Shown: piece after piece, positions 3,218-10,716 of the stretch
Numbering within the stretch: the first letter of the stretch is position 1
How the letters are laid out: each line of letters starts with the position of its first letter
NCBI GenBank assembly: GCA_022704985.1
Contig: JAKJFI010000010.1
Span: 1 to 13,413, forward strand
DNA length: 13,413 nt
Direction of reading: 5' to 3'
Origin: Candidatus Omnitrophota bacterium
Lineage (GTDB): Bacteria; Ratteibacteria; UBA8468; B48-G9; JAFGKM01
Program-made: the position numbers and the translations under genes
Notes under the pieces: generated by a model
What the model was told of the DNA's origin: nothing
The model's input: the letters and a program-made list of their open reading frames with translations, nothing else
Database searches by the model: none

Positions 3218-4156
3218 ATGAGTTTCGCCGTCACAAAATTCATCAACGACAAGACCGAAGAGCTGCAAAAAAAAATAAACGGTAACAAGAAAACGCTTAT
3301 AGCCATATCTGGCGGTGTTGACAGCATGACATGCGCCATGCTGGCCAGAAAAGCGCTTGGGAAGGACTTTATTCTTCTCTATCTCGACAACGGACTCATG
3401 AGAGCGGGAGAATCCGAGGAGATAAGAAAGTTCTTCGAGGGCATAGGGCTGGAACTTCAGATATGGGACGTTAAGGAACAGTTCTTCGCGGGACTGAAAG
3501 GCAAGATTGACCCGGAGGAAAAAAGAATCGCCTTCAGAGACATCTTTTACAGGACGCTGGGACAGGCGGTCAAGAGCTATTCAGTCGATTTCCTGATACA
3601 GGGAACGATAGCAACGGATATAGCGGAAACCCAGAAAGGGATAAAGACACAGCACAACGTGCTTTCACAGGTCGGACTCAACCCGGTGCACTTCGGGCTG
3701 AAGGTGCTTGAACCGCTTAAAGAGCTGTACAAACATCAGGTGCGCGAAGTCGCAAAGAAACTGGGACTGCCGGCAAAATTCGCCGATAGGAAACCGTTTC
3801 CCGGCCCCGGACTGGCTACAAGAATCATCGGTGAGGTTGTGCCCGATAAGGTGGAAAAGATACGCGCCGTTACCAAAATTGTGGAATCAACAATAACCGG
3901 AGCGAGCATATTCCAGATTCTTGCCGTTCTCATGAACGACAGGGCAACCGGGATGATAAACGGCAAAAGACTCTACGGAGATATAATAGCCATACGAGCG
4001 GTCGAATCAAAGGATGCGCTGACTGCCGCTCCTGCCAAGATTCCCTGGGCAACCCTGTTCAAGGCGAGGGACAAAATTCTTGCAGAAGTTCCGGGCGTGG
4101 TGAAGGTCGTTTACGACATAACGCCTAAACCTCCGAGCACGATTGAATACATCTGA
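3218..4156 (+). CDS. guaA: GMP synthetase, stand-alone ATP pyrophosphatase (ammonia-using) subunit
   Basis: This 312-residue protein corresponds only to the C-terminal synthetase half of GuaA, which activates XMP with ATP and aminates it with ammonia to GMP. The PP-loop SGGVDS is at residues 31-36, LDNGLMRAGE near 57, a GTIATD segment near 129, KPFPGPGLATRIIGEV at 192-207 in the dimerisation domain, and the family-typical end KPPSTIEYI. Fused GuaA carries a class I glutaminase of about 200 residues before this region. Here the protein starts right at the synthetase domain, as in the split two-subunit enzymes best known from archaea. No partner glutaminase is encoded nearby. The strong Shine-Dalgarno at 3206-3212 supports the start. 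purF follows after 16 bases. The stand-alone form is clear; whether a partner exists elsewhere is unknown. Confidence 0.92.
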   Translation: MSFAVTKFINDKTEELQKKINGNKKTLIAISGGVDSMTCAMLARKALGKDFILLYLDNGLMRAGESEEIRKFFEGIGLELQIWDVKEQFFAGLKGKIDPEEKRIAFRDIFYRTLGQAVKSYSVDFLIQGTIATDIAETQKGIKTQHNVLSQVGLNPVHFGLKVLEPLKELYKHQVREVAKKLGLPAKFADRKPFPGPGLATRIIGEVVPDKVEKIRAVTKIVESTITGASIFQILAVLMNDRATGMINGKRLYGDIIAIRAVESKDALTAAPAKIPWATLFKARDKILAEVPGVVKVVYDITPKPPSTIEYI

Positions 4157-4172
4157 TGACTGGGATTAACCA

Positions 4173-5492
4173 ATGAGCGAGAATTGCGGGATTTTCGGGA
4201 TTTGTAACGCAAACAGCGAACCTGCTTCAAGAGATATTTATTACGGTATCTTTAAACTGCAGCACCGCGGACAGAGACACTGCGGGATAGCAACTGCGTC
4301 AAGAGACATCCACATCATCACTCACAAGGGGTTCGTAAGACATACCTTTACCGATGATGAGCTCTGTATGCTCAAGGGTGCATCAGGAATAGGCCACGTC
4401 AGCCTGAAGGAACGCCAGCCCATCGTCTTAATTTCTCGGATGGGCAAGTTTGCCATCGCCTTCAGCGGCAACATACTGAACGGGCAGAAACTTCGCGATG
4501 GACTGAAGGAACGCGGCCATTCATTCAACAGCGAAACAGATATTGAACTAATCGGAAAACTCATATCTATCGAGAAAGATTTTCTCAATGGCATCATGAA
4601 GCTCCGAGAGAAGGTGAAGGGCTCGTACAGCATTGTCATGCTTACAAAACAGGGAATTTACGCCGCAAGGGATCCTCAGGGCTTTAAACCCCTTATACTT
4701 GGCAAAAACGGACGCCAGTTTGCGGTATCCTCGGAATCAAGACCATTCGACATAACCGGTATGGAGATATACAGGGATGTTGAGCCGGGAGAGGTGGTTC
4801 TTATAAACAAAGACGGAATAAAAACTGTTGCGAAGGTTAAAGACGGCAATCCTGCATTCTGCACCTTTGAATGGGCATACACGGCATCCGTTGATTCTGT
4901 CATAGACGGCATCTCCGTAATGAAAGCGAGAGAAAATTTCGGTATAAAACTGGCAAAAAGGGATAAAAAAATATCTGCCGATATAGTATCCCCGGTTCCA
5001 TTCTCAGGCATAGGTTGCGCACTGGGCTATCACGGGGAATCAGGGATACGGTATGAGGAAGCTTTCCTGATAGACAGGTTTGCCAGCCGCAGTTATACGC
5101 CGCCTACGCAGGCAAGCAGACACGAAGAGGCGCGTATAAAACTTTCCGTAATAAAGAATAATGTAGTCGGCAAAAAGATAATACTTTGCGATGATTCCAT
5201 AGTCAGAGGCACTCAGATACAATTCAAAGTGATGGAGCTTAAGAATGCCGGAGCGAAAGAGGTTCATGTTCGCATTGCCTGCCCTCCGTTGATGTCGCCG
5301 TGTTTTTATGGGTTATCTACACGCTCGTACAATGAACTTGCCACCAAGAAATACACCTTGGAAGGTATAAGGAAAAAAATTGGAGCGGACACGCTTGAAT
5401 TCAATACGCTGGAAGATTTTATAGATGCGATTGGACTGCCTGCGGATCATCTCTGCCTGTCGTGTTTTACGGGCAAAAAAATCAAGAAGTAG
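4173..5492 (+). CDS. purF: PurF-type amidophosphoribosyltransferase with an altered glutaminase site
   Basis: PurF makes 5-phosphoribosylamine from PRPP, the first step of purine synthesis. This 439-residue protein is of the Bacillus Fe-S type. Its Ntn-type N-terminus (MSEN then CGIFGI) exposes Cys5 after a short propeptide, LQHRGQ gives the conserved Arg32, and Asp123 lies in ETDIE. The PRPP loop IILCDDSIVRGT (336-347) is intact, and all four expected Fe-S cysteines are present (Cys230, Cys377, Cys428, Cys431). The glutaminase pocket is not normal: GHVRYxTxG has become GHVSLKE, losing the glutamine-binding Arg (Ser77 instead), and about eight glutamine-loop residues are deleted. The oxyanion HNGN has become FSGN (Ser98 for Asn). 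ARPDS also reads ASVDS and PDSG reads PFSG. It may use ammonia, or be a diverged paralogue. The Shine-Dalgarno (TGGGA, 4161-4165) is weak. Confidence 0.85.
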   Translation: MSENCGIFGICNANSEPASRDIYYGIFKLQHRGQRHCGIATASRDIHIITHKGFVRHTFTDDELCMLKGASGIGHVSLKERQPIVLISRMGKFAIAFSGNILNGQKLRDGLKERGHSFNSETDIELIGKLISIEKDFLNGIMKLREKVKGSYSIVMLTKQGIYAARDPQGFKPLILGKNGRQFAVSSESRPFDITGMEIYRDVEPGEVVLINKDGIKTVAKVKDGNPAFCTFEWAYTASVDSVIDGISVMKARENFGIKLAKRDKKISADIVSPVPFSGIGCALGYHGESGIRYEEAFLIDRFASRSYTPPTQASRHEEARIKLSVIKNNVVGKKIILCDDSIVRGTQIQFKVMELKNAGAKEVHVRIACPPLMSPCFYGLSTRSYNELATKKYTLEGIRKKIGADTLEFNTLEDFIDAIGLPADHLCLSCFTGKKIKK

Positions 5493-9837: not shown

Positions 9838-9957
9838 ATTTCTGATTGAGATTAAAAACAATACTGCCGTGAATGGACGGCGATGGAACTGTTAATAGAT
9901 GAACTATAAAAGCGTTGACTGCGGCATAAGTTTTATGAAAGACTTCTGGAGAAAAAA
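9838..9957 (+). other. Longest intergenic gap, between carB and hisF
   Basis: This 120-base stretch is the only sizeable non-coding gap in the window. It is A-rich, holds a short hairpin (9866-9881) near its start, and ends with a good hisF Shine-Dalgarno (GGAG at 9948-9951). It is the most likely place for a transcript boundary between the nucleotide genes and the hisF-glycosyltransferase genes. I see no convincing sigma-70 promoter pair, riboswitch or repeat in it. Confidence 0.5.
9866..9881 (+). terminator. Weak hairpin after carB, doubtful terminator
   Basis: GCCGT and ACGGC can form a five-base-pair stem around a six-base loop, 28 bases after the carB stop. No T-run follows, so it is not a standard intrinsic terminator. 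It could be a processing or stabilising hairpin, or chance. Confidence 0.2.
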
Positions 9958-10716
9958 ATGGCTGCGATAAGAATCATTCCGTGCCTTGACGTAAAAGACG
10001 GCAGGGTGGTAAAAGGCGTACATTTTAAGAACCTGCTTGATGCTGGAGACCCTGCAGAACATGCGGATTTTTACAGCAGGGAAAAAGCAGACGAGCTGGT
10101 ATGCCTTGACATAAGCGCAACGCCTGAGGGAAGAAATACAATGGTTGATGTGGTGCGAAAGGTATCCGACGTGATTTTTATCCCCATGACAGTTGGCGGG
10201 GGAATAAAAAGCCTTCAGCACATAGAAACGTTTCTGAAGGCCGGAGCGGATAAAATTTCAATGAACACTTTTGCGGTGAGGAATCCGGAGGTTATCCGGG
10301 AAGGAGCGAAAAAGTTTGGCAGCCAGTGTATAGTCATAGCTATTGACGGTAAGAATATCGGAAAAGACCGGTGGGAGGTGTATGTGGAAGGCGGAAAGAC
10401 CCCCACGGGAATCGATGTCGTTGAATGGGCAAGGAAAGTCGAAGACCTTGGCGCCGGGGAAATACTCCTGACAAGCATCGATATGGACGGAACGCAGAGC
10501 GGCTACGACGTGAGAATGACAAGGATTGTCGCCGACAGCGTGCGTCTTCCGGTAATCGCATCCGGAGGCGCAGGCGCCCTTGAACATCTCTCGGATGTGG
10601 TAAAGAAGGGCAGGGCAAGCGCGGTATTGCTTGCGTCTCTCCTACACTTCAGAAAATTCACAATCGCACAGATAAAAGACTATTTCAGGCAGCAAAGCAT
10701 AGAAGTCCGCCTCTGA
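9958..10716 (+). CDS. hisF: Imidazole glycerol phosphate synthase cyclase subunit
   Basis: HisF is the (beta/alpha)8 barrel that uses ammonia, normally delivered by the HisH glutaminase, to close the imidazole ring and release AICAR, linking histidine and purine synthesis. The 252 residues match the canonical length. The catalytic aspartates are present: Asp11 in CLDVKDGRVVKG and Asp130 in IAIDGK. Phosphate-site glycine motifs TVGGGI and ASGGAG, and DMDGTQSGYD, are intact. By alignment from memory to the Thermotoga enzyme, the ammonia-gate residues Arg5, Glu46, Lys99 and Glu168 (Glu167 there) and the HisH-docking Asp98 are kept, so it still looks built to meet a HisH. No hisH or other his gene is in the window. 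The start has GGAG at 9948-9951, six bases upstream. It is followed after two bases by an envelope-type gene, an unusual neighbour. Confidence 0.95.
   Translation: MAAIRIIPCLDVKDGRVVKGVHFKNLLDAGDPAEHADFYSREKADELVCLDISATPEGRNTMVDVVRKVSDVIFIPMTVGGGIKSLQHIETFLKAGADKISMNTFAVRNPEVIREGAKKFGSQCIVIAIDGKNIGKDRWEVYVEGGKTPTGIDVVEWARKVEDLGAGEILLTSIDMDGTQSGYDVRMTRIVADSVRLPVIASGGAGALEHLSDVVKKGRASAVLLASLLHFRKFTIAQIKDYFRQQSIEVRL

Follow-up and report, generated by a model that had tools for sequence, protein, structure and literature searches.

Glutaminase-deficient variants of GuaA, PurF and CarA gathered with CarB and HisF in one bacterial locus: candidate ammonia-fed isozymes

For synthetases of the kind considered here, glutamine is taken to be the nitrogen donor in vivo because free ammonia is scarce in cells (PMC3376133; this and all other papers are cited for excerpts only); the same source treats single-domain NadE as the example of this class in which the use of free ammonia has been studied in vivo, and its Table 1 has no entry for a guaA (730 genomes) or carAB (600 genomes) without a glutaminase. 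Ammonia-fed members of these enzymes are few. Human carbamoyl phosphate synthetase (CPS) 1 is one of them, keeping a glutaminase-like domain whose catalytic Cys has become Ser (PMC4655335); Escherichia coli PurF still uses ammonia when its Cys1 is replaced, and the crenarchaeal PurF' was proposed in 2011 to be an ammonia-dependent phosphoribosyl pyrophosphate (PRPP) aminotransferase (both PMC3261824); the ATP pyrophosphatase (ATPPase) unit of guanosine monophosphate (GMP) synthase (GMPS) uses external ammonia in vitro, according to the excerpt on which we draw. CPS1, NadE and PurF' provide precedents or proposals for the use of ammonia; a preliminary description of the DNA analysed here had stated that CarAB, GuaA, PurF and HisF can use free ammonia in vitro. 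This DNA, hereafter the window, is a stretch of 13,413 nucleotides from Candidatus Omnitrophota bacterium (contig JAKJFI010000010.1, assembly GCA_022704985.1), in which variants of guaA, purF and carA are located together with carB and hisF.

Our comparison is concerned with the structures that would normally release ammonia from glutamine; the glutamine-dependent type of each enzyme is called canonical, and the window-type variants are called GuaAv, PurFv and CarAv. The preliminary description had read the cluster as lacking every intact glutaminase, and for three members this is what we have found: the domain scan of GuaAv returns NAD_synthase/PP-loop and GMP_synt_C domains with no glutamine amidotransferase (GATase) domain, its closest PDB relatives (2dpl and 6jp9) being free-standing archaeal ATPPase subunits (GMPS subunit B); the Cys/His/Glu triad of CarA is replaced by Gly250/Asn332/Ala334; and no HisH frame occurs anywhere in the window, where CarB and HisF are 120 bases apart. 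For PurF the claim stands as to glutamine binding, but not as to the nucleophile, which is kept. Relatives were compared in a sample of 35 genomes from the phylum of G187, the nearest relative among the genomes covered (Omnitrophica/Ratteibacteria-like); G187 and G324 were themselves found via a sample of 386 genomes that reaches other phyla, and all results on the phylum go back to these two. The CarA scan of genome contigs had returned 41 loci at 28-42% identity, none of them a close relative, and the phylum of G003 gave CarA matches at 28-36% only. The assemblies come without completeness figures, and the absence of a gene from a single genome is weak evidence.

In the alignment of PurFv to Bacillus subtilis PurF (1ao0), Cys1 corresponds to residue 5 and the Asp is kept, Arg73 and Asn101 are both replaced by Ser, and the glutamine loop is shorter by eight residues, where Cys1, Arg73, Asn101 and Asp127 are the labels that we take these PurF residues to carry. 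Since Cys1 is kept while Arg73 and the glutamine loop are gone, it is the binding of glutamine that appears impaired, and not the nucleophile. PurFv scores narrowly below the TIGR01134 cut-off (347.7 vs 350 bits), and its phosphoribosyltransferase (PRTase) part keeps the iron-sulphur cysteines and the DDSIVRGT of the PRPP loop. These features are shared by a whole family, counted here as the best 120 of 7994 PurF matches, window copy included: Ser for Arg73 and the missing glutamine loop occur in all 120, and Cys1 in each of the 119 that have an N-terminus. A new motif is fixed (S77-L78, Q82-P83), accompanied by Cys37 in 118/120; the oxyanion-hole Asn column holds Ser in 94 and Asn in 14, the glutamine-binding Asp column Gln in 52 and Asp in 44. 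The Gln348 of the PRPP loop is likewise found in 120/120, the nine canonical rows read having RGTT, i.e. a Thr at this position. Columns conserved at 95% or more number 82/214 in the PRTase part and 49/221 in the N-terminal nucleophile (Ntn) part. In a tree of 59 rows, the 35 variant rows form one group (starred, 97) apart from the 21 canonical rows (starred, 100).

A group of three rows (G130, G118 and G347; L117, L118, L133) adjoins PurFv in this tree, sharing DSIVRGTQ and having Ala or Ser for Cys1; with its altered glutamine site, this PurF-like group could relate to crenarchaeal PurF'. No purine gene was found among the 13 neighbours scanned in these three genomes, the genes there being unrelated.

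GuaAv also falls below a curated cut-off (TIGR00884, 302.1 vs 338.75), and its short length (252-368 aa) is common to the best 120 of 7982 GuaA matches. The PP-loop (SGGVDS in GuaAv) and residues D134, E137, K143, H146 and N147 are shared with full-length GuaA, and the lid motif differs: Gln stands in place of His in all 120 best GuaAv matches, and His in 7/7 aligned full-length GuaA sequences of the phylum. The motif IK(T/S)HH is said to be present in all 600 aligned GMP synthases (PMC4673825), and the formation of adenyl-xanthosine monophosphate (adenyl-XMP) involves His388 and His389 of GMP synthase (PMC10526850). The short GuaA resembles the free-standing subunit family; no subunit A was identified to go with it, as the seven free GATases of about 190 aa, which come from seven of the 13 genomes searched, are TrpG/PabA. 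Database labels of the short GuaA conflict and may mislead: P0258, P0263, P0295 and others are variously labelled as 7-cyano-7-deazaguanine synthase, ExsB family regulator, ATP-binding protein or GMP synthase.

CarAv scores below TIGR01368 (212.5 vs 307.35) and above PRK12838 (234.3 vs 221). In its family, i.e. the best 26 of 143 CarA matches with the window included, the catalytic Cys is gone throughout (25 Gly, 1 Val), the His is kept in one sequence and the Glu in two; of the next 13 matches, 12 keep the Cys, and P0036 and P0037 are without the Glu. The mean pairwise identity of 25 CarAv sequences is 0.65 in the N-terminal domain, which we take to be the one that faces CarB, and 0.47 in the dead glutaminase domain. 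In a CarA tree of 70 rows, a starred group (99) holds all but one of the 38 rows that carry the canonical label (37 rows, with triads read in 32 of them), and the Cys-less rows fall outside it; P0030, labelled canonical, is itself Ser-Tyr-Ala. As Gly occupies the Cys position in 25/26 CarAv rows and in all six other Cys-less rows of the phylum in the tree, a single old change from Cys to Gly is the simplest account of these sequences, several losses being possible too. Many independent losses were considered and set aside: the tree needs two changes as labelled, and one old loss is simpler, though not proved. Two CarA genes, G422 C87 (L318) and G423 C199 (L316), have the Cys to Gly change alone, with His and Glu kept, and adjoin PurL and PurQ, respectively. 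In G412 (C201; L123, L168), the early part of the CarAv gene contains a TAG in frame, which may be erosion or a sequencing error.

The CarB that accompanies CarAv is above both curated cut-offs (1623 vs 599; TIGR01369, 1493.4 vs 1027 bits). In six relatives (G187, G406, G407, G408, G409 and G412), the canonical operon has the N-half of carB alone (about 550 aa; L119, L256, L257), and the sole CarB C-half found is that of the full-length CarB of the cluster. In six others (G394, G395, G402, G403, G404 and G411; L227, L228, L229, L240, L249, L251), a free CarB C-half (516-538 aa) is located in the GuaAv locus, between the short GuaA and HisH; CarB N-halves lie elsewhere in G394, G395, G402 and G403, with a fragment in G411, and none was found in G404; in five of the six, the halves of one enzyme are thereby divided over two loci.

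The variants occur together. In the seven genomes where the CarA beside PurFv can be read (G187, G405, G406, G409, G412, G414 and G420), Gly replaces the Cys in every one; the carA that adjoins PurFv in G421 is a fragment without the triad, and no intact CarA lies beside a variant PurF among the loci read. Twelve of the 26 CarAv pair with PurFv on equally long contigs, where chance gives a mean of 0.16. GuaAv and PurFv form 16 such pairs against a chance mean of 0.66 and at most 5 in 2000 shuffles, two of the 16 having a PurF at 54-55% identity (P0213 and P0223), outside the close clade of the window, and one (1848) being doubtful, as it joins different data sources and may be due to chance. 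Elsewhere, PurFv is followed by GatB-GatA-PurS in G425 and by GatB-GatA-PurS-PurL in G423, and other Cys-less CarAs are found beside HisF and CarB (G424, and G423 together with GuaAv), after PurL (G422) and after PurQ (G423 C199).

The glutamine-dependent types are located elsewhere in the same relatives. PurFv, accepted at 59% identity or more and with fragments in G401, G416 and G419 left uncounted, occurs in 22/35 genomes (four partial), and canonical PurF, judged by an identity of 36-41% with the glutamine-loop motif read in eight of its genomes, occurs in 26; 17 genomes have both, five the variant only and four neither. The short GuaA is present in 30/35 and the full-length type, judged by open frame and identity and including partial frames, in 24, with both in 20, the short form only in 10, the full form only in four and neither in one. 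CarA triads, read in 28 of the 35 genomes, are intact in 22 and have Gly for Cys in 11, five genomes having both kinds; G407 and G412 have a further canonical-type copy whose triad was not read. The arrangement is clearest in G187 and G406, where one operon reads PurF-CarA(intact)-CarB N-half-GuaA(full)-PyrG (in G187, L119) and another reads GuaAv-PurFv-CarAv-CarB followed, across a contig break inside CarB, by HisH-HisF-ELM1. Other glutaminases are in order as well: the motifs are intact in 6/6 PyrG frames, in 10 free TrpG-like frames (seven of them identified) and in the PurQ of G423.

All three canonical genes are missing from eight of the 35 genomes (G393, G398, G404, G405, G414, G415, G422 and G423), which is suggestive only; one of the eight, G393, has a broken CarA that may be of either type. 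G423 (2.1 Mb) has PurFv, GuaAv and two Cys-less CarAs together with PyrG, TrpG and an intact PurQ, while canonical PurF, full GuaA and intact CarA were not found in it and its HisH is a piece at a contig edge. G405, whose contigs are short, has no PyrG or TrpG match, and its single class I GATase match is its CarAv.

With regard to HisF, the window copy passes the histidine-family cut-off (TIGR00735, 341.8 vs 294.55) and falls below that of WbuZ (279.7 vs 299.7). HisH is over its cut-off in 30/35 genomes, one copy each, below it in G397, G400 and G423, and without a match in G405 and G422; the glutaminase motif is intact in 26/26 HisH frames. Of these 30 genomes, 20 carry HisH on the same contig as GuaAv, five (G187, G406, G407, G408, G412) have it on another contig, next to the CarB or HisF of the cluster, and five (G419, G420, G421, G424, G425) have it with full-length GuaA. 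Since HisH is single, is mostly located at this locus, and HisD is found in 30/35 genomes, the HisHF of this locus is probably a histidine enzyme. The window and G405, in which CarB and HisF are 78 bases apart (L241), lack the hisH that relatives have here, and one HisF each in G422, G423, G424 and G425 adjoins GuaAv, CarAv or both with no HisH; the HisF without HisH of the preliminary description is thus shared by a few relatives, but is not the rule. HisH as a common supplier of ammonia was discarded, being absent from the window.

On this evidence, we consider it somewhat better than an even chance that the cluster encodes ammonia-fed isozymes beside glutamine-dependent ones. GuaAv, PurFv, CarAv-CarB and HisF would then be an old set of paralogous, glutaminase-deficient synthetases whose synthetase sites accept free ammonium or ammonia from solution in place of glutamine-derived ammonia, i.e. 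a second set of enzymes leading to purines, GMP and carbamoyl phosphate (and to histidine in the case of the window), the glutamine-dependent copies being encoded by a separate operon. NadE, which exists in forms that use ammonia and forms that use glutamine, and CPS with its two types, I and II, are comparable cases. The enzymes would have to be active and to yield the usual products, and the genome of the window itself would presumably carry canonical copies. A role in primary metabolism is favoured by the ordinary CarB and HisF, by PurS near PurFv in G425 and G423 (in the latter with PurL too), by the free CarB C-halves of the GuaAv locus and by G423, in which only the variants were found. 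As judged from the family alignments, the losses are more than chance, being fixed across the best-match families; the CarA and PurF changes look like those of old paralogues and not like fresh parallel losses. The argument of the preliminary description that parallel changes in these folds are hard to explain by chance calls for correction, as the short GuaA is like a subunit family that stands free, and the other changes look inherited. Of the shared shift to ammonia that it proposed, the coupling of the PurFv and CarAv changes survives, but a cell-wide shift does not agree with the intact PurF, CarA and full-length GuaA of relatives or with the HisH, PyrG, TrpG and PurQ motifs, which are intact where read. 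Its own alternative, paralogues with normal copies elsewhere, agrees with the relatives, where intact copies do occur, which is one part of what it had named as telling against a shift.

Several observations weigh against ammonia-fed isozymes. The Gln of GuaAv replaces a His that is said to take part in making adenyl-XMP, and that of PurFv replaces a Thr of the PRPP loop, so that the products of both may differ; an enzyme fed by ammonia alone would not be expected to retain Cys1, as 119/119 sequences do; the surroundings of the locus are lipid A/lipopolysaccharide (LPS) genes; and, since both kinds coexist (PurF in 17 and GuaA in 20 of the 35 genomes), the main route may run through the canonical copies. 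It is unlikely, in our estimate, that G423, G414, G405 and perhaps the lineage of the window have dropped glutamine-dependent PurF, CarA and GuaA altogether and make phosphoribosylamine, carbamoyl phosphate and GMP from free ammonium only: the canonical genes missing from G423 could be assembly gaps, and the lack of PyrG and TrpG matches in G405 speaks for an incomplete assembly.

The same Gln changes in otherwise conserved synthetase motifs (120/120 in both families) would suit enzymes recruited for a specialised pathway, e.g. a nucleotide-like or carbamoylated decoration linked to LPS, in which PurFv and GuaAv have other substrates or products. Cassettes of PP-loop and HisH/HisF-like proteins (WbpG/HisH2/HisF2) serve the acetamidino groups of O-antigens, the HisF of the window also scores 279.7 to WbuZ, LpxK, ELM1 and glycosyltransferases of families 9 and 4 (GT9, GT4) are recurrent neighbours, and many relatives carry canonical copies. 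We nevertheless regard such a pathway as having only a minor chance, because HisF passes the histidine-family cut-off and not that of WbuZ, HisHF is probably a histidine enzyme, CarB is ordinary, free CarB C-halves sit in the GuaAv locus of six genomes, and PurFv elsewhere adjoins GatAB/PurS or unrelated genes. Amidination of O-antigen of the WbpG/HisH2/HisF2 kind was rejected as a reading of its own, HisF scoring as a true HisF, and is kept only within this broader one. Less probable still is that glutamine continues to feed the synthetases in trans, through a shared complex with canonical CarA serving CarB, with HisH or with a GatA-type amidase: since the cluster CarB supplies the sole C-half found in six window-type genomes (G187, G406, G407, G408, G409, G412), canonical CarA may share it, many relatives carry an intact HisH in the same operon, and PurFv lies beside GatB-GatA in G423 and G425; yet neither the window nor G405 has a HisH next to its HisF, the seven free GATases scanned are TrpG/PabA and none is GuaA subunit A, and the cluster CarB adjoins CarAv rather than canonical CarA, the N-terminal domain of CarAv being its better-kept part.

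The invariant Cys1, the fixed new motif and the drifting Asp column could alternatively mean that the N-terminal domain of PurFv is an active Ntn amidase whose substrate is some amide besides glutamine, which the Ala/Ser for Cys1 in the related group of G130, G118 and G347 and the Ser for oxyanion-hole Asn in 94/120 make very doubtful. We find it hardly credible that a duplicated operon is simply decaying here: the glutaminase domain of CarAv does evolve fast, the CarAv of G412 has its in-frame TAG and PurFv fragments in G401 and G419 have stops, but no stop lies within the 22 PurFv or 30 GuaAv matches, PurFv is an old separate group with strongly conserved columns, and the N-terminal domain of CarAv is better kept than its dead domain.

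The order of the genes in the window, from left to right, is the end of a CCA-transferase, a HIT protein, a TIGR00375-like protein, LpxK, GuaA, PurF, CarA, CarB, HisF, an ELM1-domain protein, a GT9 glycosyltransferase and a GT4; the start of carA has been corrected to 5528 from 5462.

Table 1. Features of the cluster and its surroundings, in positions of the window.
Feature	Position	Strand	Evidence
LpxK-like lipid A kinase, upstream neighbourhood marker	2121..3194	+	TIGR00682 142.6 vs cut-off 91.95
GuaAv, GuaA-like ATPPase without glutaminase domain, 312 aa	3218..4156	+	PF02540/PF00958, no GATase
GuaAv lid-loop motif IKTQHN, Gln145 at the His of GMP synthases (IK(T/S)HH)	3641..3658	+	
PurFv, variant PurF, 439 aa; Ntn domain without glutamine loop, and PRTase domain	4173..5492	+	
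PurFv Cys equivalent to catalytic Cys1, kept	4185..4187	+	
PurFv Ser77 at the Arg73 position; glutamine loop gone just after	4401..4403	+	alignment to 1ao0
PurFv Gln348 in PRPP loop DDSIVRGTQ; Thr in canonical PurF	5214..5216	+	
CarAv, CarA small subunit with dead glutaminase, 347 aa	5528..6571	+	PF00988 + PF00117
CarAv Gly250 at the catalytic Cys position	6275..6277	+	
CarAv Asn332-Pro-Ala334 at the catalytic His-Pro-Glu position	6521..6529	+	
CarB large subunit, full length, ordinary	6574..9837	+	TIGR01369
CarB-HisF gap of 120 bases; intact hisH there in most relatives' loci	9838..9957	+	
HisF, ordinary, without HisH	9958..10716	+	TIGR00735
ELM1-domain protein and glycosyltransferase family 9 (heptosyltransferase-like), downstream	10719..12784	+	PF06258, PF01075

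We found no description of such a cluster in the titles and abstract openings of the open-access literature (subscription papers not covered). Each of its elements has a precedent; what is new is that four of them meet at a single locus of a bacterium and that relatives keep canonical copies apart. If ammonia-fed isozymes are the correct reading, the cluster is a coordinated set that lacks, or has only in broken form, the glutaminase function of each of PurF, CarA, GuaA and HisH, and it brings a bacterial example to the idea, put forward in 2011, that a PurF whose glutaminase is dead depends on ammonia; if the canonical copies are truly absent from lineages such as G423, nitrogen would have a second route into nucleotides, on which these steps do without glutamine. 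G187 offers the pairs PurF/PurFv, CarA/CarAv and GuaA/GuaAv within a single genome for the study of the gain or loss of glutamine dependence.

Compared with the described systems, as far as the excerpts cited portray them, the likeness is in each case partial. Single-domain NadE (PMC3376133) is also a synthetase that works on free ammonia where its relatives use glutamine, but it is another enzyme. CPS I, represented by human CPS1 (PMC4655335), keeps a glutaminase-like domain with the catalytic Cys lost, as CarAv does; there the Cys has become Ser within one long eukaryotic chain, whereas CarAv is a separate bacterial CarA that has Gly for Cys, has lost His and Glu as well, and adjoins purF and guaA variants. 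The PurF' of Crenarchaeota (PMC3261824) is, like PurFv, a second PurF-like gene with an impaired glutaminase beside the canonical one; PurF' is without the N-terminal Cys, while PurFv keeps Cys1 and is instead without Arg73 and the glutamine loop; the two are likened here by their features and not by a tree. Lastly, the ATPPase of two-subunit GMP synthases (GuaAb; 2dpl, 6jp9) is a free-standing chain with GMP_synt_C of about 310 aa, as is GuaAv, which differs from it in having no identified subunit A, in its lid motif, IKTQH and not IK(T/S)HH, and in being accompanied by a full-length-type GuaA in 24/35 genomes of the phylum.

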